From Amphibalanus amphitrite (lineage: Eukaryota; Arthropoda; Thecostraca; Balanomorpha; Balanidae), in assembly GCF_019059575.1 (NCBI RefSeq), contig NW_024882995.1:88765-152764 (forward strand): a stretch of 64,000 nt of DNA. The letters run 5' to 3'. Numbering within the stretch: position 1 is the stretch's first letter; the number at the start of each line of letters is the position of its first letter. A program made the translations under genes and the position numbers. Below, piece by piece: positions 5,370 through 61,700 of the stretch. The notes beneath the pieces are model-generated. The model made no database searches, was not told the origin of the DNA, and worked only from the letters and a program-made list of their open reading frames with translations.

Positions 5370-5575
5370 TACCGCGAGAGACCAGCGTTCCTTACCGCAA
5401 GTTTCTGCAGCACCTGCAGACCAGCGTTCCTTACCGCGAGTTTCTGCAGCACCTGCAGACCAGCGTTCCGTACCGCGAGTTTCTGCAGCACCTACAGACC
5501 AGCGCTCCTTACCGCGAGTTTCTGTAACACCTGCAGACCAGCGTTCCTTACCGCGAGTTTCTGCAGCACCTCGTC
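5370..5575 (-). repeat. Exon-edge array: donor of CCDC141-like exon 2, 39-bp unit
   Basis: The last 18 coding bases of exon 2 (reading VLQKLA) plus the 5' splice site GTAAGG and the first ~20 intron bases are repeated five times at exactly 39-bp spacing, with a truncated sixth copy. The genuine exon end is 5552; donor-equivalent positions follow at 5513, 5474, 5435 and 5396. Each copy keeps GCGGTAAGG or a one-base variant. In the coding frame the first extra copies read on as VLQKLAVRNAGLQ before a stop. Confidence 0.9.
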
Positions 5576-25520: not shown

Positions 25521-25524
25521 AACG

Positions 25525-33061: not shown

Positions 33062-36000
33062 CTGCGGGGGGTAGAGGGAGGTACGTCAGAGACGAGCGAC
33101 ACAATACGGAGCAGCGGATACACTGGCGAATTCTGGGACCAACGTCATCCTGATTATGTGAGCCAGTATGATGGAAACAGTGCCGATAAATCATAAATCA
33201 TAACTATGCCGATAAATCATACGAAGCAAAGTTTCCGTCCCAAAGGATGATCCATTTACTCACAGACTGAGTGCACACAAATACCTCAAAGTATGCTCTT
33301 ACGGACACATGATCACCATCTGGGCCAGTGAATTAGTTACCTGTGACTCGGGGCTGGAGTCGCCGTCGCCGTGCTCCAGGGATCCGGAGCCGGCCAGCGG
33401 AGCGGTGACCAGCTCCTCCAGTGAGGCCAGGGAGCCGGCGGCGGCGGCGGCGGCGCCAGTGGCGCCCTCTGCGCTGCCGTACTCGGACGACTGAGCGGTG
33501 AGCCAGTCCGAGTCGGTGGACCGCCAGGAGGCTGACCGGTGCAGCGCACAGTCCGGCCCCTCCTGGGGGTCACAGAGCGGTCAGCGGGTCACAGGAAGGG
33601 TCACGGAGAGGAAGGGGGTCGGTGCAGCGCACAGTCCGGCCCCTCCTGAGGTCACAGAGCGGGGTCACAGGAAGGGTCACGGAGAGGAGGGGGAGACCGG
33701 TGCAGCGCACAGTCCGGCCCCTCCTGAGGTCACAGAGCGGGGTCAGAGGGTCACAGGGAGGGTCACGGGGAGGGTCGGAGGGAGGGCCCAAGGACAGGTC
33801 GGAGGGGAGGGGAGTCGGTGCAGCAGGGATTAGAGCAGGCTCTGAAGCCAGAGAAAGGGGTAAGATAAATAGAACGAGGGAAGGGGCCAGAGAAGAATGG
33901 AGGTGAACTTGGTTTGGGTGAGCAATCAAGTGATAGCACAAACAAGACCCGCACAAGTACCACCAAACACTTCGCAAATTAACAGGTAAGACAGTTGACA
34001 GCATCATTCCACCGCTAGAAACGACTGACGGAAAAGTACTGACAGACGACTACGAAAAGGCGACATTGTTAAACGACTACTTTGCCAGTCAGGCAAAGCT
34101 CGATATTCCAAATTCGCACACCGTACCAATGGACAACATAGGACACACGACGATTCCCACCCTCGGTACAATTGAGACAACTGAGAGAGAAGTCCTACGA
34201 ATCTTAAACTCCCTTGACTCTAATAAATCCACTGGCCCGGACAAAATCCCAGTAAAAATATTAAAATTATGTGCACTCATCATAGCAGGCCCACTTTCGA
34301 AATTGTTTAATAAGTCTCTCGCGTCTGGAATTTATCCTTCAACGTTTAAACAGGCCAATGTGAAACCCATATATAAAAATAATGGATCACCATCTGATTA
34401 TACCTGTTACCGACCCATCAGTCTTTTATCTTCCCTTTCAAAAGTTTTTGAAAAAATTGTCCACAAACGCATTTATGATCATTTAACAGAACACTTATTA
34501 TTGACTGACAAACAGAGTGGATACCGGAAAAAAGCACAGCACGGAACAACAATTACTTTATTTGACCCATAACATGCACAAATCACTCGACTCAGGCCAT
34601 GACTTCACAGTAATTTACCTGGACATATCAAAATATTTTGACAAGATCTGGCACCAAGGACTATTATACAAATGCAAACATGACTTTGGCATAACTGACT
34701 CACTGTTAAAATGGTTGACTTCCTACCTCAGTGACAGACGACAACGAGTGCAAATAAACAACACCTTTTCGAACCAACAAATTGTTAACGCTGGCTGTCC
34801 TCAAGGCTCTGTACTCGGACCTCTCTTAGCCTTAATGTATCTTAACGGAATTCAACAAAACATCGACAATGAAATTTTACTTTTCGCAGACGACACATCT
34901 CTTCACGCATCCCACTCAACGACAGACCTCCACGACGTAGAACTTTCACTTCAACGCGACCTTGACGAAATATATAAATATGGCAGAAAATGGGCAATTA
35001 CATTCAACACAACAAAGACAGTCCAGCAAACATTTTCACGTAGAAATAATTTCACAGCACCACGTCTCACATTTGGTAGGAATCCCATACCCATTCATGA
35101 AAACCACACTCATCTGGGATTAACATTCTCCAATGACCTACATTTTCACCATCACATCAACAAAATTTGTAAAAAGGTCAACCAATCACTAAGCCCACTA
35201 TATCCAATTGCACAGTACGTACCCAGGCCCATTCTCGACCAAATTTATAAGACGTATATCAGACCACACTTCGACTATTGCGACACAGTATACGACGGAC
35301 ATATCACGACACACGACGCCATGCGACTCGAGAGACTACAAAACAGAGCGGCAAGACTCGTGACAGCAACCTTATTTAGAACACCAACTGACAAGCTTTT
35401 ACTCGACTTAGGGTGGGATAGACTATCGACGAGAAGACGCATGCATAGAATAACACTTTATCACACATTCAACAGCCACGAAGAGTACACACCACAATAT
35501 ATTAAAAATACAATGCCTCACACACGCGCTGAAAACACCGGACGAGTCTTAAGGAATGCCAGTACACATACAACGACACCTAGCCGGACCACTTCGTACC
35601 ATAATTCATTTTTTCCATTAACGGCTAAACACTGGAATGATCTCCCCGAAACCATCCGATCCCTGCCACGAACATCCTTCAAAAAGACCATTTCTGAGCG
35701 GCTGGGGGTGACCAAGCCTCCAAAATTTTATGAAACTGGGTCTAAATTGGGAAATATTTTACACACAAGACTAAGAACCGGAATGAGTCACCTGAACTCT
35801 CATCTCTTCCAAATTCAAAAAAGTGAAACATCAATGTGTGCTTGTGGCTTTCCAAACGAGAACGTTCGGCATTATATCCTTGACTGTGCACTCTACGAAC
35901 CACTAAGGCTAGAAATGTTTCAAACTATTTCTTATCAAATAGGTATTGAGCTAAATGAAATTTCTCCTAAGCAAAAACTTGACTTTCTTATTCACGGTGA

Positions 36001-39000: not shown

Positions 39001-42000
39001 GGCCGGCACGGCTGCCACGCCGCAGCGGCCACGGTCAGCTCAGAACGGCGCGGAACGGCACGGAGCACCGCGGCCCGATACGGACCCGTCACGGCACAGA
39101 CCGGCACGGAGCGACTGAGGAGCGGGCGCGGCGGCTGAGCCCGTCTCCCGGGCCGGCCACGGCTCGCCGACAGCCCACCCGTCGGCGCTCGCCGGCCCAT
39201 TGAGGGGTGCCAGGGCGGCGGCCGGCACCGTCCGCGGTCCGCTGCCGGGATTTATCGCCGGCCGGCCGCCGGGGGTCTGCTGCCGCCCGTCAGCCGGGGG
39301 TCTGTCGCCGGCCGGCCGCCGGAGGTCTTCGCCGGTCCGCCCCGAGTCGTTTGTCTCGTGACCCGGGCGGAGGAGGTGTGGGAGACAAATTGGACTTGGC
39401 ACTGGGCGTCACATAGTGTGACGCTATGGCCCTGCCACGGCTGTGGCCGAGCATGCCATGGTCAGGTGGCTGTGACTGTTCCATAATTCAGTGTCCAGGG
39501 CTTTTAGAGGGGACTTGTCTCTAATCCCCGCCATTCGGTTACAGCGCAGACCAGCCGCAAGAGATAGTATAAAAGTCATTCGTTTTGTCTTCAAATCATT
39601 AGTACGACCGGCTCATTGCGTTGCACTGAGTGATCCATTACCATTATACAGAGAACGCCAGCACTGGCCTATGTCGGATGGACAGAACGATCTGAATGTT
39701 TCACCTGTCAGTCGCCCCTCTGTAACCCAGACACGCACAGACCGCGCCGAACTTGGCCCAATACCTCCTGCCGTCCCTGAGGAGCCTGCTCCCTCCCCGC
39801 CCTCCGGCCATCCCTCACGGGCGACCCCCGGCCGTCAGAGGCGATCGGCGCGGGGCATACCGGCCCGGGTGACGGGGCGGCCGCTCGCCACGGCCGCGGC
39901 GCGGCGCGCACCAGGAACGTGGAGGTCGGTGTCGAGCCGCCGGCGGCTGCCAGCGCGGCCCGGGGAGCCGGGCGGCACAGTTTGGGACGGAGATCGTGCC
40001 GCCGCCCCGGTAAGGCAGCTATTCTCGGTGAGAGGGGAGGAGGGCGGGGTGACGACTGGTGAGAGTGGAAATGGGTCCGATGGATGTGGGCGGGTACTCG
40101 GGCGCGGAGATCCCTCAGATGTGCCGATCGGTCGCTGATGGAGACGACCTCACACCTGTTCGGCGACAGCGGATACGCCGCGAAGTGTGTCGGACATCAA
40201 AGGAAGCAGGTCAACGCAGCTGAGCGCGAAGGCAAGACTCAAGGGGGATCTGTCAAGATGCTCACCGCTTTTCACACGGCGGTCGGCGGGGATCCTAGGA
40301 CATGCGTGTTTGTAAGGAAATTTAACTTAACAGCACTGGTTTATTGGAAGTCACTGAGTAATGATATCATAATTTAAGTTTAGGCACAATCGAACTTATT
40401 TCGGTAATCAGATCGACGGTGAGTCCATATCGAGCTTTCGCGATCGTGAACAATGACCAAATAAAGATCGTGAGTACCGTGATACATGACATGATACCAT
40501 GATCCACACCTCAAACACCCTGATGAAGTCAACGTCATATTTAAATGTTCAGCTTAGAACAGCTACCCTCCGCTGTTCAGCTTAAACTTGAGGAAATGCA
40601 GAAAAAATGGAATGCCTATTTCAATTCCGACATGGCCTTCCACATGGGTATCCTCCCGGCCGCCCCCCCCCCCCCCCCACCTACCCACCCACACCCACAC
40701 ATCTGCACGCCCACTCCCCGACCTACCTGTGGTTGTGCGGAGTCCCGGCTCAGTCACACCGAACGCCGGCCACTCGTCACTCTGTACCCACTCTCCCTCA
40801 CTCGGCTGACCGGTGTGACCCGCGCCACTCGGCCTGTCCTCCCGCGGGTCGTCCGCCGGTCACCGTCCGCGCTCCGCCCGCCGCCCACTGGGTAGGTCGC
40901 TCGGTCCCGGCGGCAGCTGGCGGGGACGCTGCCAGTGCCGGCCGTCGCCTCACGTTTGGCACTGCGACCAGGTCGGCCGGGCGGCCGCCCCCGGCTGCTG
41001 CCCCGGCCCACAACTCGGAGCCGCCGGCGCCTACCGACGCACCGGGCCGGCCCCCGTCCAAATCACCGCCGCGGGGGAGGGCGGAGCCGGCGGCAGAGCG
41101 ACGGAGGAAGGTGGGCGGCACCCCGCGGCCCTCCCCCTAACCCCGCTCAGGTACCCCCGTTTGGAGCTGCGGAGCTAAACGCTAATGGTGGCGGTAGGAT
41201 GTTTACGTAAAGAGGGTGTTAATGGTTGTGTGTGGGCCAACCGCGGCGGCGGTGATTATATTCCGCATATCCGCTGCTGCCCACCTATTTGACACCGCGT
41301 AGTCGCACTCTGAGCGGCTCTGCCCACCTGGGTTTGACGTCGTCCTGGAGCCGCTCTCGGAGCAGCTTTCCCAGCCGGATGGTGCGGCCGACGTCTCGCA
41401 GCAGCGTCTCCCGCTCGCCCAGCTGACTGCCGACGGCGTCAGAGGAGGCCGATGACGGCGACGACCGCGGCGAGGAGGCGACCGACGAGGCGCGCGCCGG
41501 CCGCGGCGGCTCGCAGCACAGCTGCCGCAGTCGACGCAGTTGCTAGGGGGGAGGGGGGGGGGGGCGTGAAACGATACTGAATACGAAATACAGAGGGAAG
41601 CGAGGGAGAAACAGGAACACCATACACAGTACAGTTGGTACGATTGGGTGAAACCTCCATCTTCTTTCGGTGACACCCTCCGGCCGTCCTGTTATCACAC
41701 TGTGGTCGACCGTTCCCCACCCCCGGCCAGTAACACCTCCCAGCTGTTGGTGATCGGCTGTCCCACAACCCACTCTCCGGAGAGTGACTCCTCCCAGCCT
41801 ACGGCCGGAGACGGCGGCTCCCGGCCCAGGGACCCGAGGAGGAACTGACAGCCGTCGTCCCGCTCCCAGCCGTCCCAATGGACGGCCCCCGGTCAGTGGG
41901 ACGGGCCGCGGTCCCCGCCCGGCAGATCGCACCGGACCGGCCGTACCTCGTCGGCGGTGCGGTGGAACACGGCGGCCACTCGAAGGCGCGTGATGTGCTC

Positions 42001-45000
42001 CTGGGCGGCGGCCCTCAGCCGCGACCAGGCCTGCTCCAGACGGCCGCTCAGCTGCCCGGACACCTCGTCACCGCCCAGCCGGCCGGCCGCCGCGCACGAC
42101 TCCGCCCCGTACTCGTACGTGCGCTGGAAAAATCGAACAAATTATTCGTACTTCATAGTACTTGCAGTTAAATACAGCACTGAAGCATCAGTACCTTTAC
42201 TCAAATGTAACGCTAGGAGACGGAACAAATATTGAAGCACACCAAAAGTTGCAGTCACCCGCTGCCTGCGCCGGCCTCACCTTGGCCGTCTCCTCGAAGC
42301 TCTGGTGTTGTCGCTTCATCAGCTGTATCTCGGTATTGTCTCGACCCACCCGGGCGTGCTCTGAGCCGAGCAGGCGACTCAGGTCCGCCAGCCAGGAGAG
42401 CGCCTGGGGCGGAGGTTAGGGACGTCATATAACCGGCACACACCGGAAGAACGCCTGAGGCGGACTACAGGGGGTCATATTCATATAACCACACACAACC
42501 AGCTGTCACACAGTCATCACTCCATTCTGAGGTAACGATGATACCCTTCCTGTTAACGAGGTCACTGAAAGATCGGCGTGTAAGTCCAATATATCGTCCC
42601 GTCGGCCACCACACCACCCCAATAAATAGCCCGGTGGTCTCAGCAGCCTCTCCTCTGTGGGATGATGGAGCGGCCGTTCGCCGAGCAGCCGGTGACCGTC
42701 AAGGAGCGACTGCCCGCTGACAGACAGCTGTGTGTGTGTCTGTCTGTCGGTGCTGCCGCAGCGGGACAGACACGACCCACCGGTTACGGCTGCCGCTCAC
42801 ATACGGCGCATATGGTCCCGCACCGGCCCTGTAAACAGCCGCGGCCGACCCCGGCGCCCCCACTGACCTGCTCGGCCTGCGCCTGACACTGGCCCAGCTG
42901 CAGCGTCTGCTGGAGCCGCAGCCGGCTGATCTCCCACGTCTCCAGCACCGTCTGCACGTGCTGCTGCAGCCGCTGCGAGAGACGCGTCACGTGCGCCAGC
43001 TCCGAGCTGCCGGCGCACCAGCGACACGTGTCACGGGGACCGACAGGTGGCGGGCTCGGTTTGGATGGGATACAGGGTAGCAGCTGCTTACTTGGTTTTG
43101 GTCACACAATGAACACATGCAAATGATGTCAAAGCTGCTTATTCAAATTGTTCCTCTCAAAGAAGGACTGATTGAATGCGTACGCGGGTGATAACTGTTC
43201 GTATGTATGTATGTATGTATGTATGTATGTATGTATTTACGATCATGGGCGATCCACACATGGCGTGGCGATTACTGCCCACGTGTTCGATTACTGACCT
43301 GCAGTCGGGGGTGATGTCCTGGCCGTAAGATGGCGAGCGACAGGTCCACTCACTCACCTGTAGTCGGGGGTAATGTCCTGACCAGAGAATATCCGAGCGA
43401 TGAGCCCACTCACCTGTAGTCGGGGGGTGTCGTCCTGACCAGAGAATATCCGAGCGATGAGCCCACTCACCTGTAGTCGGGGGTGATGTCCTGACCGGCC
43501 GAGTTTTTCACCGGCAGTGTCAACATGTCCTGCAGCTTCTCACCCGTCCGGATCAGCTCGGCGTATATCCGCTCTACGCAGACAGACAATAAAGTGATTT
43601 TTACATCTCATATTTTCATAAAAACACCATGCAAGATTATATCCAACCGGTGTCTAAATGTAGTCAACTAGTTAACAAGGAGTGCGTTGCAGCTCAAAGA
43701 TAAGTCGCACTATAATATGCATATAAACGAGTAAACATGCCGCTGGTCATAAGAAGCGGCCTTATCCCCAACCAAGACTCGGGAGAGGACGGGGCCGATT
43801 CGGGGGCTATCACAGCGACACCTAGGTACACCGTTCGAGCTCCGTGTCGTCGACAGCGTGTCGGCAGTTTACCCGTGTCGTTCGCGACGGTCTGCATGCG
43901 CCGCAGCTTGTCGGCGAGCTGGTCGGGCTGCAGCGACTGGACGCCCTCATCGGCGGCCTCCAGCAGCACGTGGCACGTGTCAGACACCTGCCGGGAGGGA
44001 CACAGCACGTGACGCGTGTTAGATACCTGCCAGAGGGGCACAGCACGTAATACCTGTCCGGGGGACACGGACAGCCAGACGGATCACTGAACAGTCCTGG
44101 AGATGACGTATTGACAGCTGGAACAAAACTGTCAAACCAGCCCGTCGTCCAGCAACTACGAGGCTGTCAAACCAGTCAGTAGTCCGCGGCTACATCCTGA
44201 ACAACTTCGGACACGAGGAAAATATGAGGGGGGGGGGGCGGTGAGCAGCAGGTGTCCCTCCCCTCTCCTCCCCCGGCTGACCTGTTCCAGTAGACGGTAG
44301 AAGCGCGCGGCGGTGATGAGCAGGTCCATGGTACCCCTCCCTCCCCCTCCCCGGCTGACCTGTTCCAGTAGACGGTAGAAGCGGGCGGCGGTGATGAGAT
44401 GCCCCCTCCCCTCCCCCGTGGTACCCCGGCTGACCTGTTCCAGTAGACGGTAGAAGCGGGCGGCGGTGATGAGCAGGTGCCGCCGCCGCTCCAGCCGGCT
44501 GGCCAGCGCGCGGCACACGCTCTCCATGTAGCGCCGCTGGCCGGCCAGCGAGGCCGCCTCCTCGGCAGAGGCCGTCTCGGCCGAGCGGCCGTCGGCGGCC
44601 TCCTCCAGCAGCCGGCGCACCGCGGCAAACTCGGCGTACGTGTCCTAGGGCAGAGGTCAGCAGAGGTCAGATTGGGATAGGGGTCAGATATCGGCAGCAT
44701 AGAGGGGAGATTAGAGGTCAGAGGTCCCAATATAAGCCGGGTCAGGGCTGAACACTGGGCGTGGAGGGTGGTCAGGAGTCGGCAGAGGTTCAGGCAGATG
44801 AGAGTTTAGCATACAGGTCAACGAGGAAGTGCGATTGAAGCATGTTCCTAAGTAAAGATATAAAACAAAGTGGCCAGCTTCTCACCCTGCACTGCAGCTC
44901 TGCCTCGTCGTGGAGCTCGATGAGCCGCTCCGAGGAGGCCACGTCCCGACCAATCAGCGCCTGGGACGCCAGAAGCTCCTCCCCCGGGCCGAGCACCCAG

Positions 45001-48000
45001 CCAATCACGTCGTCGACCCGCCTGACCAGCAGCCGATGGAGGTCGGCGCGGCCCAGAGCCGTGTGCAGCTCCGACCAGGCGTGACGCACCAGGTCACAGT
45101 GAGAGGTCAGGTCAGTGACCCGCTGCTGCACCTGAGGGGTCACAGTGAGAGGTTAGGTCAGTGACCCGCTGCTGAACCTGAGGGGTCACAGTGAGAGGTC
45201 AGGTCAGCGACCCGCTGCTGCACCTGAGGGGTCATATAAGGTCACAGTGAGAGGTCAGGTCAGTGACCCGCTGCTGCAACTGAGGGGTCATACGAGGTCA
45301 CAGTGACAGGTCAGGTCAGCGACCCGCTGCTGAACCTGAGGGGTCACAGTGAGAGGTCAGGTCATGTCAGTGACCCGCTGCTGCACCTGAGGGGTCACAT
45401 AAGGTCAGGTCAGTGACCCGCTGCTGCACATGAGGGGCGACATAAGATCAGATCAGTGACACACTCCTTGACCTGAGGGGTGATATAAGTCCACAGTGAG
45501 AGGTCAGGTCTGAGACAAGTATTCCTATACTGGTATATTGACTCGGAGCTAAGCCACACTGACGGCACATCCAGCGTCCACACGCCGGTCACTCAGCCCT
45601 GTGACACGCACCTGTTGTCGCTGGTTGAGCGGGTCCGGATCCGGCGGGGTCCGGGTCCGGGGGTCCGAGTCCGGTGGAGTCCGGGTCCGGGTCCGAGGAT
45701 CCGGGTCCGGCGGCCTGCCGCTGCTCCGCCGCTGGAGGCCGGGCTCAGAGCTCGGCCGGAGACTGGACAGCAGCTCCTCGCCTGGGGAACACAACGGCCG
45801 TCAGAATAGAGCACGCAATTCGACTCATATTCGCCGACAAACAAAATAGGAAAAACATGATGATGACCGGGTCGTGTGACTCCTCATATAGCCAAGACGT
45901 AAGAGCCCATGGATAAGCGTATGTCGGCCGCAGCCCCCTCAGCCCGCCCCTGTGTGTATCTGTGTCCGGTCCCGGTCGGCCCTGTGTGTGTCTGTGTCTG
46001 TGTCCAGTCTGGGGCATATTTACCTGTGTGTATGACGCCCTCGGCGGTGTCCAGCGCCGCGCGGTAGAGCGGGCCGGCCGTGCCGATCGTCTCCCGCAGC
46101 TGCGCCGCTGGCGCGGCCTCGGCGGGCAGCAGGCGCAGCCACACCGTCTTCAGCGCGTCCAGCGCGGCACCGGCGTCCTGCAGAAACTGCTCCAGTCGCT
46201 GCCGGGGACGAACGGGAGGGAGCGCTGATTTCAATGGAGTTCTTTCTTTTGATCACAATGGTCTATAGGATTGAACAACATCGAAAGTTTTTCCACTAAA
46301 ATGCAGCTATAGTAATACAGCGACAGCGGAATTTCATCCTTCGTGACTTCAGTGAAATGCAAACTAGAACCGAGCGTATTCGTCTATCCGTCACGTTTCG
46401 CTATCACATCTCACCATTCTGTCCTGGATCCAGTCCTCGTGGTTGTACGGGAACGTCCCTCCCAACTCCTCGGGGATCTGGTCCGGGGCGATGTAACGCT
46501 GCAGTTTCGACAGAGGAATGTACTCCGGCTAAAGGCAGAGAATGTGGCATGTTAGACGAGCAAACAGTTCCACACTCGGCTGGCTTATGCACACACGACA
46601 CACGCTCTGATAAGGTTTACTCACTTCGGTAGTCTGTGTACGTTTGTAATGATTACAGCAAAAACAAATATGGGATTGGTACGTACATCAAAGTGGTATA
46701 TACAAACGTAGTACATGAAGGCTTCTGAGAGGCTAAGAAGCTTTTTCTATGTTTGCAGAACGCACTGCATGAAAAGTATTGTCACGCAAATGGCACTGAA
46801 CAGTGCAACATTATGCATAAATTCATGTGTGAAAATCATCCAACACTGGGTTGTTGACAATATTTATTTCGCCATATCATTCGAAACTACATATACAATC
46901 CATAATCTACATTCCACAGTTCTAATGAGGCTCATACAGTCAAGCAGGACACCTCAATCATCACATCACGCTCATAGTCTCACATATCCCGCCCCGTCTC
47001 CGCCTCGGTCTCCAGCTCCGTCCTCGTCTCCGACTTCGCCCGCTCCGTCTCCGTCTCTGTCCGCTCCGTCTCCGTCTCCGTCTCTGTCCGCCCCGGCTGC
47101 GGCCGCGCCCTGGGCACCTGGAAGTGGCGGAGCTTCTCGTTGAGCGCCCGCTCCTGCTCGATCAGATAGGTGGCGTGCCGTTTGTAGGCGTCGTACTCGG
47201 CTCGGAGAGCAGTCAGCTGCTGGCCGAGCCGTGCCACCTCGGCGTCGCGCAGCGCCTCGCGCCGCTCCTGCTGCGCGCGCAGCTCGTGCTCGGCCAGCCG
47301 GCGCTGCAGCTCGGCCAGCTCCCGGCGCAGCTGCTCCTGCTGGACGTCCTGCTGACGCACCTGCCGGCCGCGGTCAGACGCCAGCGCCGTCAGCTGCGCG
47401 CAGCGCCGCTCGCGCTCGAAGGCGCGCTGCTCCGCCTCCTGGCGCTCCTGCTGCGCGTGCAGCTCGGCGTCGCGCAGCCGCTGCTGCAGTGTGGTGCAGA
47501 CGGCGGCCAGCCGCGCGCCGCGCGCCGCCTGCAGCCGCTGGCGCTGCGCGGCGTCCTCCAGCCGGCGGCGCAGCGCCGCCTCCGTGTCGGAGCTGCTGCG
47601 GCGCAGCGTCTCCAGCTGGCGGCTCAGCCGGCCGCGCTGCTGCTCGGCGTCGCCCAGCCGGCCGCGGACGTGCTGCTGCTGCTGCTGGCTCTGCTCCAGC
47701 TGGGAGCGCAGCAGGTCCAGCTCGCCCTGTTTGCGGGACAGCTCCCCGGAGAAGAGCTGCTCGTTCTCGTGCAGCAGGCGCGCGTTGTCGGCCTGCAGGG
47801 CGCGGTTCCGTGTCTTGTACTCGTCTTTGATCTTGGTCAGCTCGTCATGGTTCTGACTGAGCACCTGGAATCGTCTGTGCAGCAGCTCCAGCTGGTCGCT
47901 GGTCTCCTGCAGCCGGATCTGCTGGACGCTGCGGCTGCCGCGGGGCGTCCTCCCGCTCTGCTGCTCCTGCTGCTGCTGCTGCTGCTGTTGCTGACGATGG

Positions 48001-51000
48001 AGTCGCTCTCCCAGCTCGCTGTTTCGCTGCGTTAGGAGCTCGATCAGTTTGTTCTGCTCCTGAATGCGCCTTCGCAGCACCTCCGGACCCTCACAGTCCC
48101 CAGACATGTTCTGTGTGTTGTTTCAACAGAGGGGATAATCAATCATACTTCAACACTTTGAATGCTTATTTGAGTACAAACTGGCGGTAGCGCCAACATT
48201 CTATCGGTGATCGTTTTCGAGAAGACGGCCCGGAACAAGGCGCCCGGCATGGCCATAGAGGCCAAGATAGGCATGGCAGCAATGGCAGTTAAGTTTTTTT
48301 TGCTCATATTTCGAAAACGTGCCGAACATCTGGCATGTGCTACCAAGAAAAATGTCCTCTTCACATTGAGGTCGGAAGTGTGTTCATGTTTTCGCATTTT
48401 AATGTTGAACATATGTATGCGGCTGTTAGCAGCATGATTTATCAATCCAAATCGCAACAAATTGTAACTTTTACTATGCCTCTATATTCCTCGCTGACAA
48501 CTTAAGCACTCATGTGAAATGTTGGCAAGATTTGTACGTAGAAGCATGTACATAGAAAACAAAAATACGAGTTTGTGCACTTGAAATGAAGTTTTTTCTT
48601 GAAGACCCCGTAAGCTGTAAACGTGCGAGTGCGTGCACTGTGCTGCGCACTGACCTGCACGTCGTCCTCTGGCCGTCCGCAGGTGACGCGCTGTTTCTCC
48701 CAGAAGGAGTCGTGGCGCAGCACCAGCTGCACGCCGGTCCGGCCGCTGATGGCCGCCAGCGTCCGCTGAACGGCGCGCACCGAGCGCCACGAGCCCGCGC
48801 GGGCGTCCAGCACCACACAGAGCGGCGAGTCGGCCGGTCTTTGAAAGGAAGGGAGAGTCAGTATCAGTAAAGGGCGCCCAGCACCACACAGAGAGGCGAG
48901 TCGGCCGGCCTGTAAGGAAGGGAGAGCTGTCAATATACATGGTCTGTTATACGGTTCTTTCCAAGAAAAAAAATGAAATCCACGAAACTAGGTATCAGAA
49001 ACGGGAAATGTCAGCCTAATTAGCCAGATAAGTTTCAGGAACAAACATCTACCTTGAGAAGTCGAGAAGGATGTGGTTGAAAAAAACGATGCTCAAGCGA
49101 AGAAGGATAAGGCAATAATCGGGCAGGTCATTGTAACAGGTCTGTCCGGTGACTGACCTGAGAGGAAACCCAGCTCTACCGCTCCAGTCCGGTTTAAACG
49201 GCGGCTGAGCCGAATCAGAACCCGACCCCGCTGCCACTGTCGGTGCGAACGGCGACAGGTGACCAGATGTTGCCAGCAGGACTCAGACGGCGTAATACGG
49301 CCTCGAGCGCGGTTTGTGACACAAAAAGCTGCCTTCCTAACTTGATACCTACTTTTCAACCAACGAAATCCGTTCCATCATAAGCAATTTTATCTTTTTT
49401 AAATTTTTGGGAGTCAAGCTCCCCCGACACCGCCATCTGAGCTTTTATTGCGTCGGAGAAAGGTCATAATTATCTAATCGAGATAATGACTAAATGGACT
49501 CACACCACCTCATTATGTTTTAATGCACTCAGCTTTCATGTAACACTTCAAAACAGAGTAGCAGATGTTTTGTCCAGCGGAAAAGCTGAAGGCCCGAACC
49601 GCGATGGACGCAGAGATCGACGGTTGGTAGACCACATTCCGGCCTAGTCAGCCCAGCCTTAGTCCGTAAGTAGCGCCGCCGCGCTGACCCCAGACCCCAT
49701 TATGCCGACTGTTTTACCGTCCAAACGAAAACAGCTCACAGACGCCCTGAATGTCACTTTTTGTCCACCGGGTCAGCTGTATAGCTGTCACTGTAAAGCC
49801 AAAATGGTTTCCCACACAGGAGGAAGGGCCAGTAGGTGGTGTAGGGGCAGCGAACAGCGGCGACAGTTCGACGGGTACTTACACGGCACAGGAGACAAGG
49901 TAGCGTCCTTGACCCGTCCGTCAACAGCCTCTTTATGCCCCCAACAAGGGCATTCGATCGGTTGGAAAGTGGCACGATGAAAAATCTTGGCTCCTTGATA
50001 GGACAAAAAAACATCACAAAAAAATCAAACTAACCGGAACGATGTGAGGTAGATGACTGTTCGGTATCAACTAACCCAAGAACACGATTTTCAATACTTT
50101 CGATTAGAAGTGCCGTGCGGCAGCTAATTGACTCTCGGTCAGATTGCAGACCTACCCACAGGCCAATACGTGGAACACGCCCGGTTGGAGAGGCTGCAAA
50201 GTGCGGTCCGTTTGACCGGCGGCCACAATCACTGAGCGGGGTCCAGGAAGTGAGGAGGGAAGGAGAAGGGGTGGCCGCAGCAACCAATCTCAGAACGCAT
50301 CGTCCGCCCGCAGTACGACCGAGTAATGACCGACACTAGTTACAACCGCCGGCATTATCGCGAGCCGTCGGGTGTGCTGCGCGAAAACCGTTCAGCCGTG
50401 TCAGATATCAAACGGACAGTGCAGAAAATGACCAACGTGTCAGGCAGGCCGCAGGCGTGTCAGGTTTCAGATGGCCCATACATATAACTTACTCCTTTGC
50501 TCTGAGAGGCGAGACAAGTTCCAGCATAACCATTTGAGCTAAATGTGCAGCAGTGAGTAATTACATTAATTGCCCGGTATTCGCGGAATGTGGGACGGTC
50601 ACTGACTCCGTGCTCCCTCCACAGCTGATGAGAGCAACAAACTCACCTGAGTAGAGTACACCGAACCTTAGAGCACATACCACAATAGCCACAGACTCAC
50701 CTGGGTAAACTGAGCCGCCGAGTACATACCACGGACTCACCTGGGTATGTCCACCAGGTACCGGGCCGCTGTGTACTAGTGATGTCAATTACAGAAAATC
50801 GGAATACCGATACCAAACCAAATACCAACCAAAACCACGGGAAAATACCGAAACCAAACCAACTTGGGAAAATGAGGGAAATACCTACTTTTTACCGATT
50901 TCTTAGCCTCTTATACCTTAGTGAGGCCTTATGATACCAACACAATACCAAACACATTACGATTGAAATACCAAATACCAAGTTGGTATCGGTTTGGTAT

Positions 51001-51232
51001 CGGTATACCAAAAAGTTGGTATCCGATTGACATCTCTACTGTGTACCTCACCATAGACTCACCTGGGTATGTCGGCCAGGTAGCGGACCACCTGTTGGAG
51101 CTCCTGCTCTGACCAGAGGCCGCCGTCGGCCGGCACGCCGACGAACAGCACCGGCCGGCCGGTCAGGTCGCGGCTGCCCGGCAGGCTGGCCGGCCGGCCC
51201 AGCAGCGCTCCCAGCAGCTCTGAGGCCCACAT
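31259..51232 (-). CDS. SESTD1: SESTD1-like: SEC14/CRAL-TRIO domain plus spectrin repeats
   Basis: Sixteen exons: 51232-51063, 48838-48655, 46528-46415, 46198-46024, 45781-45612, 45131-44886, 44644-44435, 43987-43873, 43573-43471, 43006-42868, 42403-42281, 42123-41947, 41542-41328, 38170-37945, 33562-33341, 33061-31259. All phases agree and they sum to 1463 codons plus stop. Residues 1-156 form a SEC14/CRAL-TRIO lipid-binding fold (LCVVLDARAGSW, DSFWEKQRV, ELGGTFPYNHEDWIQDRM). Residues 157-790 are spectrin-like helices (HTGEELLSSL, DDVIGWVLGPGEELLAS, ETWEISRLRLQQTLQLGQ, RTYEYGAESC), in the order of vertebrate SESTD1, which binds phospholipids and TRPC channels. Trio, MCF2L and PLEKHG4 share the N-terminal design but carry DH-PH domains, absent here. 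The ~670-residue tail is extra relative to the ~700-residue vertebrate protein. Introns hold a nested gene, LINEs, a MITE and seven exon-edge arrays. Confidence 0.88.
33562..33735 (-). repeat. Exon-edge duplication: acceptor of SESTD1-like exon 15
   Basis: The 3' splice site and first coding bases of the exon starting at 33562 (GAGGGGCCGGACTGTGCGCT) recur upstream in the intron. Acceptor-equivalent positions are 33645 and 33723, 83 and 78 bp apart, each preceded by CAG. The interposed sequence (GTGACCC repeats) is duplicated with them. Confidence 0.9.
33950..36430 (+). mobile_element. CR1/jockey-type LINE, 5'-truncated, antisense in an intron
   Basis: Plus-strand non-LTR retrotransposon in the intron between SESTD1-like exons 14 and 15. 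The protein-coding part (about 33950-36085) holds a reverse transcriptase: SNKSTGPDKIPVKILKLCA, YRPISLLSSLSKVFEKI, IYLDISKYFDKIWHQGLL, AGCPQGSVLGPLLALMYLNG and the catalytic FADDTSLHAS. A C-terminal Cys/His cluster (CACGFPNENVRHYILDC) follows. One single-base slip in the A-run near 34530 breaks the frame. There is no endonuclease domain, so it was truncated at insertion. After the stop, AATAAA near 36394 and a GT run probably mark the 3' end. Confidence 0.88.
36404..36428. repeat. (GT)n microsatellite
   Basis: A GT dinucleotide run just after AATAAACATT, at the probable 3' end of the LINE. Confidence 0.9.
36720..37690 (+). mobile_element. Second CR1-like LINE, internally deleted
   Basis: An upstream piece encodes LNHFFVSVGPRVAAEVADRD and VSPIDIDTLTSTLLSMRNS, the region just before the first reverse-transcriptase motifs. 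The frame then jumps directly to the C-terminal part (LVLSQVRYCISVYGNGSKK, LENLGWLGAQQLAEY, RLHNQLPPETV) ending at 37503. The catalytic core, including the FADD motif, is missing. The element ends in an (AAATAC)n tail at 37654-37688. Its C-terminal region resembles the minus-strand LINE fragment near 13.3 kb. Confidence 0.8.
38171..41327. other. Intron of the SESTD1-like gene, no nested gene recognised
   Basis: Between exons 41542-41328 and 38170-37945. GC-rich, with poly-G tracts at 38264-38279 and 38931-38943 and a short GGTCTGTCGCCGGCCGGCCG repeat near 39250-39330. No splice-bounded coding segment was recognised. Confidence 0.5.
43201..43236. repeat. (GTAT)n microsatellite
   Basis: Nine near-perfect GTAT tetranucleotides in an intron of the SESTD1-like gene. 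Confidence 0.95.
43285..43500 (-). repeat. Exon-edge array: donor of SESTD1-like exon 9, ~57-bp unit
   Basis: The exon end reading GQDITPDY, its split last codon and the donor GTGAGTGGG recur in the following intron. The genuine exon end is 43471; equivalents lie at 43414, 43358 and 43299. Each copy has GACTACAG (once GACTGCAG) followed by GTGAGT or GTCAGT, so all four look like usable 5' splice sites. Confidence 0.92.
43970..44070 (-). repeat. Exon-edge duplication: acceptor of SESTD1-like exon 8
   Basis: The acceptor and first exon bases at 43987 (GGCAG before GTGTCTGACACG) recur at 44026 (GGCAG before GTATCTAACACG) and partly at 44053 (GACAG before GTATTACGTG). The intervening CACGTGCTGTGTCCC is copied with them. 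Confidence 0.85.
44262..44480 (-). repeat. Exon-edge array: donor of SESTD1-like exon 7, ~77-bp unit
   Basis: The exon end encoding LLITAARFYRLLEQ plus donor GTCAGCCGGGG is present three times. The genuine end is 44435; copies end at 44360 and 44282. The copied coding part is nearly unchanged over ~45 bp, while the purine/pyrimidine-rich spacers between copies differ. Confidence 0.93.
45085..45500 (-). repeat. Exon-edge array: acceptor of SESTD1-like exon 6, ~50-bp unit
   Basis: Eight copies of the unit CCCCTCAG plus the first exon bases GTGCAGCAGCGGGTCACTGA and CCTGACCTCTCACTGTGACC. The genuine exon start is 45131. Acceptor-like copies stand near 45177, 45222, 45280, 45335, 45386, 45430 and 45471. 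The distal ones are the most diverged (for example CCACATGAGGGG), as if the array had grown outward from the exon or the outer copies had aged. Confidence 0.92.
46980..48107 (-). CDS. Coiled-coil protein, CCDC89-like, intronless, nested in an intron
   Basis: A 375-residue protein in one exon, lying in the intron between the second and third exons of the SESTD1-like gene on the same strand. It begins MSGDCEGPEVLRRRIQEQNK, has a nine-Gln run near residue 40, and is then almost entirely heptad coiled coil (QLELLHRRFQVLSQNHDEL, DAYKRHATYLIEQERALNEK). It ends in a Thr-Glu repeat (TETETETER). Length, single-exon structure, an early x-RIxEQ-x-LI block and a late YxxYKRH...ER-LN-KLRH block suggest CCDC89. 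That assignment rests on memory of the family and is moderate. No catalytic domain is visible. The 303-codon frame on the opposite strand is a shadow caused by Leu/Gln codon bias. Confidence 0.72.
   Translation of the reverse strand: MSGDCEGPEVLRRRIQEQNKLIELLTQRNSELGERLHRQQQQQQQQQEQQSGRTPRGSRSVQQIRLQETSDQLELLHRRFQVLSQNHDELTKIKDEYKTRNRALQADNARLLHENEQLFSGELSRKQGELDLLRSQLEQSQQQQQHVRGRLGDAEQQRGRLSRQLETLRRSSSDTEAALRRRLEDAAQRQRLQAARGARLAAVCTTLQQRLRDAELHAQQERQEAEQRAFERERRCAQLTALASDRGRQVRQQDVQQEQLRRELAELQRRLAEHELRAQQERREALRDAEVARLGQQLTALRAEYDAYKRHATYLIEQERALNEKLRHFQVPRARPQPGRTETETETERTETETERAKSETRTELETEAETGRDM
48825..48925 (-). repeat. Exon-edge duplication: acceptor of SESTD1-like exon 2
   Basis: The exon start at 48838 (CGGCCGACTCGCCGCTCTGT and GTGGTGCTGG) and its acceptor are duplicated once, with the acceptor equivalent at 48909 (TTACAG before GCCGGCCGACTCG), 71 bp upstream in the intron. 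Confidence 0.88.
48926..50630. other. Intron 1 of the SESTD1-like gene, no nested gene recognised
   Basis: Mixed composition. No splice-bounded coding segment, recognisable transposon end or RNA gene was found. Confidence 0.45.
50635..51085 (-). repeat. Exon-edge array: donor of SESTD1-like exon 1
   Basis: The exon 1 end (reading RYLADIP) with donor GTGAGTC recurs in the intron. The genuine end is 51063. The copy at 50741 still reads ARYLVDIP before GTGAGTCCG; shorter copies with GTGAGTCTG and GTGAGTTTG lie at 50701 and 50647. A hAT-like MITE separates the first two. Subtracting it and its target duplication leaves a spacing of about 52 bp, like the other arrays. Confidence 0.88.
50777..51038. 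mobile_element. hAT-like MITE with perfect 8-bp target duplication
   Basis: A 262-bp element with inverted ends TAGTGATGTCAAT and TAGAGATGTCAAT (the latter on the minus strand). It is flanked by the direct repeat CTGTGTAC on both sides (50769-50776 and 51039-51046). Eight-base duplications are diagnostic of hAT-type insertion. The interior is built of diverged GGTATCGG/ACCAAAC tracts and encodes nothing. Confidence 0.88.
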
Positions 51233-55156: not shown

Positions 55157-55787
55157 TCCAAACCTGATCAAAATATGTGTATTCGTAAGCTTGTTCTGAC
55201 ACTACCTGGTCTGCCGAGACAGACAAACTGAGAAAAATCGAGTGACAGTACTTTTTTGAAAGTGTTATCCAACTTGTCGGAAATTTACGGGAGGACGGAT
55301 AAGTGGGGTTTAAAAAACGCATCGATATAAATTAGTTGGGGTCAAAACAGCATTATATTGCAAACATGTTTCATCATCCGCGTCGACGGATTACGGCTTC
55401 CAGATTTACTCGGGGTACGTATTGACCTGAAAGGTTATAATGGTAGGTACACGGACGCAAACGTACACAGCAAGCGCGAAAAGTTGGCGACAGTATCGCT
55501 GCGGATTTAACACTTTTTCACTCGACGCTGAGACCGACCTTTCGAAAAGAGTCGAGACTCGTACATTGGCGGGGAAAGTCGGTAACAGCACGAAATCGTA
55601 AACTGACCTCGGGTTGAATCCCTGACCAGCTATTTCGATACCTCACGTTGCATTGCAATGCCACGGCGTAATGGGTAGGCCTGAACGGAAACGACAAATT
55701 ATGCTCGTCCAGCCGTCGCCGTATCACTTAGTAATGAATTATTGTCGTGAGCTAAACCACAAACGACCGAACGCTCTCTGCGGGCGA

Positions 55788-58700
55788 TCAGGGTTTGTTT
55801 TCCGCGATGAACTTGTTGCCCTGTGTGAGCATGACCTTTCGGATGGCCTGCTGGCAGAGGTGGTAGTCGCGGTAGGGCGGGTACAGACACTGGTCCAGCC
55901 GGCTGAGGTTCGACATCAGCGTCTGCATCCCGCGCGTCAGCTCGCCGTCTCCAGGTCCCGCATACCTGCCGGCAGGTCAGAGGTCACAGACAGGTCAGAG
56001 GTCACAGACGGGTCACAGAGGGGTCAGTGGGTCAGCTCGCCCGTCTGAAGGTCCCTCATACCTGCCGGCGGGTCACAAACAGGTCACAGTGGTCAACTCG
56101 ACCGTCTGCAGGTCCCACATTTATTTGTACTGACGGGGCACAGGTCAGAGAAGGTCAGGGTAGGTCTCCAGGTCACCAAACAGAGAGGTTCAGGTCAGAG
56201 TCGGTCGGATCAAGTTTCCGGATAAATCATCACTGTCGACAGGACACGGGTCACAGGTGGTGTACGCACTGCAGGTCACGGGATCAGAATGGGTCAGTTG
56301 TGCCCTAACAACGTGATATCAATAGGTATCACCTCACGTCGTTCAGCTGAACTTACAACAAGTCGCCATAATGCCAACGTTAACGCTTTCGTGCTGGTTT
56401 TGGAATTTGTATGGCTTTAAAACAGCGACAACTCGGCTGTTTCCGTTCTGTGAGCAGCCTGCTCACCGGCTCTGTAGGCGGCGTCGGTGTCCTGCAGGAC
56501 CTTGAGCGCCTTCATGATGTTGGTCTCGTGCCCGCAGTGCTGGCAGGTGAAGAGCGGCGTCATCGTCTCCGTGGAGACCGGCAGCGGTCTCTGCCGAGAA
56601 CCCACGGCGCGGGTATCAGCCTCCGACTCAGGGATGGGCTCCCGATCAGTAATCGAGCGGCGCCCATTGGCGTAACTCGGAACAGGCGTAGGATGGCACT
56701 TATTTAATTAACTTATTAAAATGGTAATTAAAGCAACTGAAAACATCTCAACATCTCAATATAACCGGACACTGGGCGGTCGCCTCTGACTATGAGCGTC
56801 GGTACCTTGCAGGTGGTGCATTTGAACTTGAGCACCGAGTTGTCCATCTCCTCGAATGTGGGCCACATCTCCGTACACGGCGTGCAGTGACACTCAAACT
56901 CGTAACGTTCGCGCAGGTACTGAAACGGAAATTAAACACCTGCTCAAAAGGAAACTGGGTTAAGCAATAAGCGTTGAACATGTAAACGATTTTGACTGAA
57001 CAGATGCCGAGGTCGTAGGACATAAATATAACTTATCAAATGCAACCGATAAAGTGGCACATCAACAAAGAGGCTGCAGCCTGAACGTTCTGTCCAAGGG
57101 TCTTCCTAAATGCTGTGCTAGACGCTGCCTGTCCACAACCGGCTCAATTGGGTCTTTTATAGATTAGCACATTAACAATCGTTCTATGGACAAAATCGTA
57201 CCTGCAATCGCTCTCTGAGCGGCTTCTGCGTAAATATCGGACCGTAGTTTTCCGCTATGAGGTCTCCCTTCTCGATGTTCTTGATTGCACGAGCGATTAC
57301 GTTGTTACCGCTGAAATAACTGCAACAACAGAGCAAAGCAATGAGGGTTAAACGAGAACTTCCTGATATGGCATGAAGGCGTGCAACGTGCACGACTAAA
57401 TGCGCTGTTTTGTTTAAATGTTTTGGTTTATATCGTTAAACCATTATAAGTTAACAAGTAAAGGAACCCACATAGAGTATAGCTTAGCCTTCTGAGCCTG
57501 TCGGCACAGCTGTTGCGTTTGGTACGGTCAATTCCCACCCTCCCGGCGCTCCGTCCGGCCGCGCTCGTCACTGACCGCACGATGCCCGGGTCGCAGGAGT
57601 GGTTGAAGAGCGCCAGCGTCGGGTAGACGGCCGCGCCCACGAAACACTCTCCGAGCCGTCCAGGTTGTTGTGGCCCTTCATGCGCAGTTCGGCCACCTCG
57701 TGCGCGTTGTAGGGCACCAGTTGAATGTGGTGCAGCAGCAGGCCGCCCACGAACCGGCGCCGGTCGTCCAGGACAGCGGTGTCCACCTCTGACAGGAGAG
57801 GGGGGGGGGATGAAAGTCGGATATGTTATTCACGGTTCAGGGGTCGTCCAGAAAAGCATAGTCCAACAGAAATTCATCCCGGCTGCTGAGCACCGATTTA
57901 TTTTTCCCGGATATTTTACTGCTCACAATCGGCATTTTACTTCTCACCCGCTACACTCTCCCCGTCTCCCTCAGTTACCGCTCACCGTCTCCGAAGTAGC
58001 CCTGGAACTGCAGACAGCGCAGCATGAACACGGCCATCAGTGTGAGCGGGAACAGGGTCTCGGGTGTGCGCCGGTCGGTGTGCGCCACCAGCCGGTACAC
58101 GGCGCCGTAGTCCTGTCCGCTGTAGGGCCCGGCCGGCGGCTGGCTGAGCCGCGGCCGCGCCGCCAGCAGCTGCTGCACGCTGAGCCGGGTGGTCAGCCGC
58201 AGCGACAGCAGACACGTCACGCTCATACCGGAGGCGTAGAGCAGCTCCTGGATACGGCACTCCACCCGGTGGTAGGAGCCCAGCGCCGCCTCGCGGCAGG
58301 GCAGCGAGCAGAACAGCACGCCGCTGCAGACCGTGCACGGCACGCAGTCGCGGATCCTGACAGCACAGGCACAGGGGGATGGGTGTGGGTGCATTTGGGG
58401 CCCGGTAATATGGTACATAATACGGTAATCCACACGGTACATCGGCGGAATCGGCGATCCACGGATCGGGAGAATGATTGGGGGGGATCGTCACTCGTGC
58501 AGGTTTGTGACAAACAGCGCAAATATTACCCATTCTGTCAACGAACATACCAGTGGAGGCGGTTTTTCGCATTCATTATGCGGTGAGGCGGTGTTAATTG
58601 TTCCCGTGTTACCTGACGTGGCAGTGCAGGCAGTGGGTGCCGTATTTCTGTAGCGTTACCTGACGTGGCAGTGCAGGCAGTGGGGGCCGTATCTCTGTAG

Positions 58701-61700
58701 CGGCAGTTACCTGACGTGGCAGTGCAGGCAGTGACATTGTATTTCTCTGGTGATGCCGTCAGTATTGTTCCCGTGTTACCTGACGTGGCAGTGCAGGCAG
58801 TGGGGGCCGTATTTCTGTAGCGTTACCTGACGTGGCAGTGCAGGCAGTGACATCATATTTCTGTGGTGATACCGTCTGTATTGATCCCGTGTTACCTGAC
58901 GTGGCAGTGCAGGCAGTGTGTGCCGTATCTCTGTAGCGTTACCTGACGTGGCAGTGCAGGCAGTGTGTGCCGTATCTCTGTAGCGTTACCTGACGTGGCA
59001 GTGCAGGCAGTGGGTGCCGTATCTCTGTACTATTACCTGACGTGGCAGTGCAGGCAGTGAGTGCCGTATTTCTGTAGCGTTACCTGACGTGGCAGTGCAG
59101 GCAGTGAGTGCCGTATCTCTGTAGCGTTACCTGACGTGGCAGTGCAGGCAGTGAGTGCCGTATCTCTGTAGCGTTACCTGACGTGGCAGTGCAGGCAGTG
59201 AGTGCCGTATCTCTGTAGCGTTACCTGACGTGGCAGTGCAGGCAGTGTGTGCCGTATTTCTCCGGTGATGCCGTCTGTATTGTTCCCGTGTTACCTGACG
59301 TGGCAGTGCAGGCAGTGGGTGCCGTATCTCTGTAGCGTTACCTGACGTGGCAGTGCAGGCAGTGAGTGCCGTATCTCTGTAGCGTTACCTGACGTGGCAG
59401 TGCAGGCAGTGAGTGCCGTATCTCTGTAGCGTTACCTGACGTGGCAGTGCAGGCAGTGGGTGCCGTATTTCTGTAGCGTTACCTGACGTGGCAGTGCAGG
59501 CAGTGGGTGCCGTATCTCTGTAGCGTTACCTGACGTGGCAGTGGAGGCAGCGGGTGCCGTATTTCTGTAGCGTTACCTGACGTGGCAGTGGGGGCAGTGG
59601 GGGCCGTATCTCTGTAGCGTTACCTGACGTGGCAGTGTAGGCAGTGAGTGCCGTATCTCTGTGGTGATGCCGTCTGTATTGTTCCCGTGTTACCTACCTG
59701 ACGTGGCAGTGCAGGCAGTGGGTGCCGTATCTCTGTAGTGTTACCTGACGTGGCAGTGCAGGCAGTGGGTGCCGTATCTCTGTAGCGTAGCGTTACCTGA
59801 CGTGGCAGTGCAGGCAGTGGGTGCCGTATTTCTCGGGCCGGAGGACGGCCGCGAACGGCTTCTCCACCACGAGAACGTCTCCGACGGCCACCGGCTGGGC
59901 GCTGACGGCGAACCGACCCTCCTCGGCAGTCTCCCGCACTGCCACCTGTCGGCCAGAGGCGGAAACTCAGCGGCCCGAGTGGGGCGCGGAATGGGAGGCA
60001 GGTGCAGCGCCCGTATATCCATCCAGTGACTACAAATGCTGTATACTTACGTCACTAGCCGATCAAATGCATTTGTTTGTACTTCGCGGTGCAAAAAGAG
60101 GGGAGAAGTAAAAATATTCAAAATATAACATTTTATTATAAATCGTCGTCGACAAAAGATTGTAATAGCAGAGCGCCGGCCTTGTATCGACTATGTTGTC
60201 CGTTATGGACAATGTTGTACCGACTTTGATACATCGTGACGGTAAACGTACGCAGCCGAGTGGGTCGGTTTCTCACCTTTTTGGACGCTGCCGGGTACAT
60301 CTGGTTGGCTCCGGCGGTGAGGGACGGCAGCGGAGGGAGCCAGCTGTGCGGCTGGGGGTCTGGAACACGGCCGGCCGGGAGTGAGGGCGGGGCGGGGAGG
60401 GGTGCATCATCATTGTCGCTCTGTGTTGTACGCCAGGAATGACCATAATGACCAAAGTGGACAAACTTATTATTCGAAAGCGAAGAGCTTCTACGTATTG
60501 CGCTCATACCGACGAATATCTCGAACAGCACCAAATCTATTATCAAAATGTTCTGCTCAGCTTCCATTTAAAAACCACTATGCTATTTATGCACAATGTG
60601 CTCTACAGCTGTGTTTACCCACCGGCGTCGGTGTACTTGCTCTTCTCGAAGAGCGCCAGCATCTTCTGCACCTCCTTCTGCCAGTGCATCTGCTTGCCGT
60701 CGCCGAGGCTGGCGTCGTCCAGTGCCTTGATGACGCTCTGGAAGGCCGTCTTGGCCTCGGTGAACCGCCTCAGTGCCATCAGACTGCGGGCGCGCCTGGG
60801 GAGCGGCAGGGGTCCCCACGGGGGGGGGGGGTACATACGTCAGTTGCGACAGGAGACTGAGGAGCGCGACAGAGGACCCCGGGAGGCACGTCAGCGGCAG
60901 GAGAGGGCTGCAAGCGGAATTACTCTCCTAAAGAATTGCAAGCGGAATTATTGACATGCAAATAACGTGCAAATGAATAACCGTCTCTGTCGAAGAACCG
61001 TCTCACCTGTCGAGCACCTTGTAGCGGAGCGCGGTGGGGTAGCCGGAGAGCAGCGCCAGCTCGATGTCGGCCAGGCAGCGCTGGTGTTTTCCCGTGTGGT
61101 AGAGGCAGGCAGACCGGTTGGCGGCGCACACCGCCACCAGCTCGCTGACGCCGTCTGGGGACAGACACGCGTCAGCAGGTCACAGCAGGTCAAATGGCAC
61201 ACAGCAGGTCACACCGCCACCAGCTCACTGACGCCGTCTGGGGACATGGCGTCAGCAGGTCACAGCAGGTCAAGTAGCACACAGCAGGTCACACGGCCAC
61301 CAGCTCGCTGACGCCGTCTGAGGGGGGGGGGGGAGGGGGAGACACACGTCAGCAGGTCACTGACACCGTCACGCCATCAGCTCGCCGACACTCGCCCCTC
61401 CCCGCCACTCGCTGCTCACCTTTGTACGGCGCCTTGGCCATGGCCTGGCTGTAGCAGCGCATGGCCGCCGGGTAGTTGCCCTCGGAGAAGAGTTTGTTTC
61501 CCTCGTCCTTCCTGGCCCGGGCCTCGGTCTCGTCCTTCTCCTTGTAGACGTGCTGCAGGGCCACCTGGCGCACCTCGGGCAGCTCGTACACGAAGGCCAC
61601 GCGCTGCTCGTCCGAGCTCAGCGCGCAGAAGCCCGTCCACTGGTCGGCGCTCAGGCTGCGCATCACAGACTGGCTGAACGGCCTGAAGAAGCCGGCCCGC

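Follow-up and report, generated by a model that had tools for sequence, protein, structure and literature searches.

A 64-kb stretch of the genome of the barnacle Amphibalanus amphitrite, referred to throughout as the window (56% GC; contig C1498 of an assembly of 807.6 Mb in 2644 contigs), contains genes whose exon-intron boundaries recur as tandem copies in the adjoining intron. COX1 of this assembly is read with the invertebrate mitochondrial code and appears to be of arthropod type, and barnacles have been described as highly heterozygous (PMC8270832). Two gene-rich stretches of the window were read on the minus strand and 43 boundaries were set by hand in three gene segments, namely a spectrin-like exon (5.55-5.67 kb), part of a SESTD1-like gene (41.9-48.7 kb) and a SMYD4-like gene (56.0-61.4 kb). 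The names SESTD1 and SMYD4 are putative; they come from an earlier note on this DNA and not from a database match. Pfam backs a MYND finger in exon M6 of the SMYD4-like gene, and the joined exons of the SESTD1-like gene give a spectrin-repeat match below the Pfam cut-off. The hand-placed exons are in phase by reading, with the exception of M7 (57575-57788, minus strand), which shows a one-base frame shift in the assembly. Introns are short, with a median length of 265 bp among the 19 that are defined.

Duplication of a boundary was scored by gapped alignment, for which at least 10 bases were needed on each side of the splice site and the copy was sought on the intron side. By this test 8 of the 43 hand-placed boundaries, four acceptors and four donors, have intron-side copies (Table 1). 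Strict ungapped matching, which misses arrays with insertions or deletions near the boundary and was for that reason replaced by gapped alignment, recovers 5 of the 43. Exons predicted ab initio across the window yield duplications at 9 of 62 boundaries; the boundaries at 45131 and 44434 are missing from this set, as the predicted exons there have other ends or were removed, and its additions are two acceptors (48838, 33562) and one weak donor (51062). Taken together, the two sets contain 11 duplicated boundaries (six acceptors and five donors). The earlier note had described duplications at eleven boundaries, at least six of them acceptors and five donors. Their reality is borne out by the hand-placed set and by the arrays reported by Tandem Repeats Finder (TRF; 69 rows in the window), and the tally agrees as eight hand-placed boundaries plus three predicted ones, although the identity of the last three with those of the note is unsure.

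Unit lengths range from 39 to 96 bp and copy numbers reach 24, as had been stated, the weak donor at 51062 standing apart with an offset of about 322. Besides the splice site, the units include some 18 to 30 or more bases of coding sequence. The observation that copies always lie on the intron side is correct as to where they sit, but the side is a consequence of how exons are defined. Most copies were also said to keep their AG or GT; among the alignable intronic copies of ten arrays, all 27 at donors and 12 of the 14 at acceptors have the dinucleotide intact. The unit at 5379..5571 carries, in addition to its donor, an acceptor-like site, CTGCAG|GTG. Among ten boundary units, five or six have a length divisible by 3 (39, 57, 75, 39, 78 and perhaps 96 bp), where about a third would be expected.

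Table 1. Duplicated boundaries and the two larger hand-read genes of the window; the exon set in which gapped alignment scored each boundary as duplicated is given in brackets
Feature	Coordinates (strand)	Unit or offset	Copies	Exon	Boundary (exon set)	Sequence at boundary	Source
Donor array	5379..5571 (-)	39-bp unit	4.9	5552-5674	5551 (hand)	GCG|GTAAGG	TRF
Acceptor array	33534..33749 (-)	78-bp unit		predicted, 33341-33562	33562 (ab initio only)	CAG|GAGGGG	TRF
Donor array	43290..43496 (-)	~57-bp unit		S8, 43471-43573	43470 (hand)	CAG|GTGAGT	TRF (as 43351-43496)
Acceptor array	43964..44048 (-)	39-bp unit	2	S7, 43873-43987	43987 (hand)	CAG|GTGTCT	TRF
Donor array	44256..44478 (-)	75-bp unit	3	S6, 44435-44644	44434 (hand)	CAG|GTCAGC	TRF
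Acceptor array	45092..45511 (-)	46-bp unit	about 8-9	S5, 44886-45131	45131 (hand)	CAG|GTGCAG	TRF
Acceptor duplication	48790..48930 (-)	71-bp offset		S1, 48655-48838	48838 (ab initio only)	AAG|ACCGG	
Weak donor duplication	50740..51080 (-)	offset ~322		predicted, 51063-51219	51062 (ab initio only)		
Acceptor duplication	55949..56147 (-)	95-96 bp offset	2 intronic	last SMYD4-like exon	55965 (hand)	CAG|GTATGC	
Donor array	58608..59833 (-)	47-bp unit	24 including the exonic one	M5, 59797-59945	59796 (hand)	CAG|GTAACG	TRF
Acceptor array	61127..61320 (-)	80-83 bp unit	3 by reading	M2, 61007-61154	61154 (hand)	CAG|ACGGCG	TRF
SESTD1-like gene (part)	41946..48838 (-)			S1-S11			
SMYD4-like gene	55788..61732 (-)			11 exons, M1-M11			hand model

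Other genes lie among and between these segments. A coiled-coil-like gene consisting of a single open reading frame (ORF) of up to 380 amino acids, with a sub-threshold coiled-coil match, occupies 46980-48122 between SESTD1-like exons and on the same (minus) strand. Two stomatin-like (Band_7) single-ORF genes, at 19555-20511 (minus strand) and 21731-22741 (plus strand), are arranged head to head, and a reverse transcriptase ORF (RVT_1) is found at 34505-36085 on the plus strand.

Two haplotypes of the locus

The other copy of the locus is carried by contig C659, which is nearly identical to the window from about 46 kb up (46-64 kb) and some 6-8% divergent below 44 kb (37.7-44 kb). Near-identity over 46000-64000 beside a flank of such divergence may represent either a haplotype block common to the two contigs or a segment that the assembly has duplicated. 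The comparison of haplotypes covers the three arrays at 43470, 43987 and 44434; above 45 kb the second haplotype is not independent. By reading, the donor array at 44434 has three copies in the window and two in C659. The arrays at 43470 (about four copies in each, with four donor-bearing units in both) and at 43987 (two and two) are carried by both haplotypes with different substitutions. Minisatellite-type length polymorphism is thus present at one of the three comparable arrays, and the occurrence of all three in both divergent haplotypes speaks against assembly error for these three.

Exon edges in the myosin genes and at sampled arrays

As a comparison sample not chosen for the pattern, we used 20 regions (194 kb) around myosin-head matches, several of which are allelic pairs. 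Exons were called by a small, phase-aware predictor trained on the hand-placed exons, M7 being excluded for its one-base break, and on Pfam matches. Over all sequence examined it returned 243 exons; it recovered 47 of 57 Pfam exons, those 57 also being part of its training, and a reversed-sequence control gave 34 exons against 266 before strand resolution. Arrays with a period under 12 were dropped, as were boundaries too close to the ends of a locus (in the ungapped, gapped and tail-tuned tests) and, from the ungapped test, low-complexity blocks.

Duplications prove to be common throughout, since the end-unit rate of intron positions is about 1.1-2.4% in the window, C659 and the myosin set alike. 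Duplication affects four of the 344 boundaries in the myosin set (one acceptor among 174 and three donors among 170), which is no excess over the end-unit rate of about 1.2% at noncoding positions (84 and 88 of 7403), and decoy splice-like sites are duplicated above the true-boundary rate (14 of 451). When the test is tuned to exon tails, 5 of 170 donors are scored against 1.26%, four of the five representing two allelic pairs, and 1 of 174 acceptors against 1.35%. In the myosin genes, then, boundaries and intron sequence are duplicated at about the same frequency. With strict ungapped matching on predicted exons, duplicated boundaries number 5 among 57 for the window, 3 among 66 for C659 and 2 among 309 for the myosin regions. 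Exon interiors of the myosin set are depleted of duplications (86 of 24,405 positions versus 2,212 of 126,771 noncoding positions), as would be expected if coding copies get removed.

Individual myosin edges illustrate the same phenomenon. In one region (L017), an exon ending YRYLSQ is followed by a donor array of about a dozen copies, by reading. A pair of myosin alleles (L027 and L028, 89% identical) share an older copy of a donor block, and a younger 32-bp array is present in L028 and not in L027; because the older copy is common to both alleles and the younger private to one, this donor must have undergone two or more duplications, each in its own register. Two myosin heads (C287:285476-287329 and C142:397607-399466) run through some 640 profile positions in a single uninterrupted frame; elsewhere myosin matches are found exon by exon.

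Eight 220-bp stretches upstream of further arrays were also scored for coding potential, the arrays having been picked by eye as multi-copy from a genome-wide listing and not at random. Three of the eight (L032, L033 and L037) contain, by coding score, an exon ending at the array-repeated donor, that of L032 being homeodomain-like by reading, and L036 provides a fourth exon by reading, at which the coding score of the script is low (0.9). At L038 a donor lies beside the array, the L034 stretch is still within its array, and no exon is in view in the 220-bp stretches of L035 and L039.

Weighing the explanations

The best-supported reading, and one that we regard as probable if far from certain, is that the arrays are minisatellites of the type termed 'mirages' in amphioxus, tolerated at exon edges as the splice site adjoining the exon would still work. 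Tandem duplications of roughly 30-100 bp would happen to include an exon edge, the duplicated units would then expand and contract by slippage or unequal exchange, and the arrays would persist as splicing would use the copy adjoining the true exon and leave the message unchanged. With introns as short as those of this locus, a sizeable fraction of the duplications placed at random is bound to reach an edge.

Three results weigh against tolerance of randomly placed arrays as the whole account. First, boundary-spanning arrays exceed chance placement. The share of intron covered by arrays was discarded as a null, since long arrays inflate coverage; end-unit rates were used instead, together with a model in which each array is collapsed to one unit placed anywhere in the array-free part of the 19 defined introns (a 4-bp repeat at 43201-43236 being left out). 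Seven of eight arrays in these introns span a boundary versus 2.1 expected (P 1.2e-4, a post hoc value because the locus was picked for the pattern); among the seven, that at 55965 came from alignment and not from TRF, and the one wholly intronic array came from TRF. Secondly, the proportion of predicted boundaries duplicated in the window (9 of 62) is above that of noncoding positions (43 and 49 of 3104, or 1.4-1.6%) and of decoy splice-like sites (7 of 317). The figures for C659 are 8 of 76 boundaries, end-unit counts of 95 and 81 among 4009 noncoding positions, and 24 of 403 decoys. Thirdly, tandem pairs of the donor motif CAGGTRAG, defined as two occurrences 22-52 bases apart and counted genome-wide with the reversed motif as control, number 3805 among 68,660 sites (5.5%) as against 716 among 41,517 (1.7%), an excess of 3.2 times when scaled and one not obviously to be expected of plain minisatellites.

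The placement of arrays on splice sites above random expectation is therefore supported for this locus, with the reservation that it was picked for the pattern. The window is an outlier, a local cluster, and not a proven rule for all genes. The proposal that the arrays centre on splice sites beyond what ordinary minisatellites would do accordingly stands within the locus, and edges elsewhere are hit too, but it fails in the myosin set, where boundaries are duplicated no more often than noncoding positions.

The motif counts also bear on whether a process tied to splicing in general could be at work, as had been suggested. AAGGTRAG, which was meant as replication, shows no excess genome-wide (567 pairs among 46,762 sites, 1.2%, versus 809 among 51,521 for its reversal, 1.6%), nor does the acceptor motif TCCCCAGR (904 of 40,232, 2.25%, versus 816 of 35,871, 2.27%), a comparison of low power in which single occurrences are only about 12% over control. 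CAG and AAG donors are similarly common (25 CAG|GTRAG and 20 AAG|GTRAG among 243 predicted donors in the sample), and a general donor effect would show in both; the excess of pairs is thus confined to one of the motifs tried, CAG|GTRAG, and a general splicing-tied process is not shown. Selection for the extra splice sites is likewise without support. The 24-copy array at 59796 has an invariant seven-base core, but most of the unit's 47 columns do not vary either, and AG has been lost in 2 of 14 acceptor copies.

An unlikely alternative, although the most probable of the rivals, is a process, or a tolerance by selection, that singles out CAG|GT edges. An edge of this type forms both the end of an acceptor and the start of a donor, so that splicing from a GT to the next CAG would excise exactly one unit and restore the same junction; mis-splicing within the array would be silent, and arrays of this kind would persist or expand where other arrays disappear. 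The CAGGTRAG excess and its absence for AAGGTRAG favour this idea, as do the lower raw pair counts for a motif changed by one base (CAGGARAG, 436 pairs; its reversal, 583) and for one retaining CAGGT without the donor tail (CAGGTYCY, 1001 pairs). On contigs C1-C4 (12.4 Mb), the 100 listed CAGGTRAG pairs fall into 22 clusters, 14 of them with at least two pairs and mostly of different units by reading, whereas the five listed CAGGARAG pairs are all single. The sampled arrays that begin on an exon donor (three by coding score, a fourth by reading) point the same way, and among hand-placed boundaries CAG|GT is found at 6 of 8 duplicated edges versus 7 of 35 others (Fisher P 0.0055, post hoc). On the other side, the reversal of CAGGTYCY gives 2445 pairs, so that high counts are also reached by a motif that plays no part in splicing, and 5.5% is not far above the recurrence of noncoding 8-mers near exons in the window itself (3.6% at 30-60 bp, simple 8-mers dropped; 0.8% in the myosin set). 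Four of the ten window boundaries whose letters were read (5551, 61154, 48838 and 33562) are not CAG|GT, and the tail-tuned test found little excess in the myosin loci. These data hint at a slight additional preference for CAG|GT edges and do not establish it. If real, it would connect minisatellite growth, splice-site choice and intron gain.

A more specific form of this idea, which we consider less likely again, is that the arrays are 'splice-silent ladders', in which CAG|GTRAG copies would double as 3' and 5' splice sites and unit-long mini-introns could be removed in any combination to give the same message. Were this so, duplications would escape purifying selection and pile up at one class of exon edge, which would set a rule for the places at which introns may lengthen and open a way towards recursive splicing and new introns.

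It is more doubtful still that CAGGTGAG-like words are prone to minisatellite formation for reasons of sequence, exon donors so spelled being carried along. The high count of the reversed motif and the 8-mer recurrence keep sequence-intrinsic minisatellites a candidate; of six pentamers compared in the sample, CAGGT occurs in pairs at the highest rate, a figure on which the window's own arrays weigh, and two sampled arrays (L035 and L039) had no exon in view in the stretches scored. Against this, CAGGTYCY yields 0 pairs among 49 sites in the sample and CAGGTCAG 6 among 79, an exon lies at the start of around half of the arrays sampled (eight in all), and the listed arrays differ in their units.

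Very improbable is the view that some arrays are coding repeats, the exon truly running through the copies. At 44156-44644 an open frame does span three copies, the 39-bp array at 5.4 kb is likewise open, and the five or six unit lengths listed above are divisible by 3. Units of 46, 47, 71 and 80-83 bp are not, however, the offset is 79 in the C659 allele of the 44-kb array, and by reading a stop follows just past the donor at 43470 and a TGA stop interrupts the intronic copies of the 61127..61320 acceptor array. Assembly expansion or duplication error is scarcely credible: C659 cannot confirm the arrays in the near-identical part, but the divergent part has arrays with different substitutions in both haplotypes, and copies within one array differ among themselves.

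Gene annotation in such genomes can face many near-identical decoy splice sites beside real exons.

Comparison with known systems

The pattern had been thought undescribed. It is not: in two reports (PMC3087553, PMC3902484), 'mirages' denote minisatellite-like tandem duplications of exon-intron boundaries in several amphioxus genes, namely Adh3, TnC, the globins BflGb6 and BflGb9, and PGBD5, the second report having added PGBD5 and troponin C. One mirage is reported to have 6 versus 3 units in two haplotypes, reverse-transcription PCR (RT-PCR) suggests that splicing is undisturbed, and the mechanism is called unclear, an intron-gain model being offered (PMC3087553); somatic instability is reported for the Adh3 mirage. 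The literature that we searched held no arthropod or barnacle case of boundary duplication that we recognized, and the available part of a study of fish intron repeats (PMC3045353) notes none.

Intron gain by tandem genomic duplication (the Rogers model as cited in PMC3087553, and potato RdRp, PMC4974935) likewise involves tandem duplication with AG|GT. The duplication in that model creates a new intron, whereas here existing introns are lengthened. Ordinary intronic minisatellites resemble the present arrays in period, copy number and variation between haplotypes, but the arrays of this locus favour exon edges above the expectation from placement. Recursive splice sites consist of a juxtaposed acceptor and donor. 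The CAG|GTRAG spelling of such sites is common to many duplicated edges here, a likeness of spelling alone.

The closest match is with the mirages, from which the reading of tolerated minisatellites takes its model. The arrays of the window share with them units that span the boundary, occurrence at both 5' and 3' boundaries, AG or GT kept in many copies, copies on the intron side and a difference in number between haplotypes. Amphioxus units, at 10-160 bp (PMC3087553, PMC3902484), bracket the 39-96 bp of most units here. Unlike the amphioxus examples, the present ones come from an arthropod and affect 8-11 boundaries in one 64-kb stretch, and the amphioxus work had RT-PCR and somatic-instability data where ours draws on sequence alone. 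Judged by these shared features, the arrays appear to be of the known mirage kind, in another animal and at an unusual local density, and by extrapolating from the motif counts we arrive at hundreds of CAG|GTRAG arrays genome-wide. In lancelets, mirages have been reported gene by gene, so far as the accessible parts of those reports go; the cluster described here, together with the further loci, makes the choice between attraction to exon edges and tolerance at them testable at scale.

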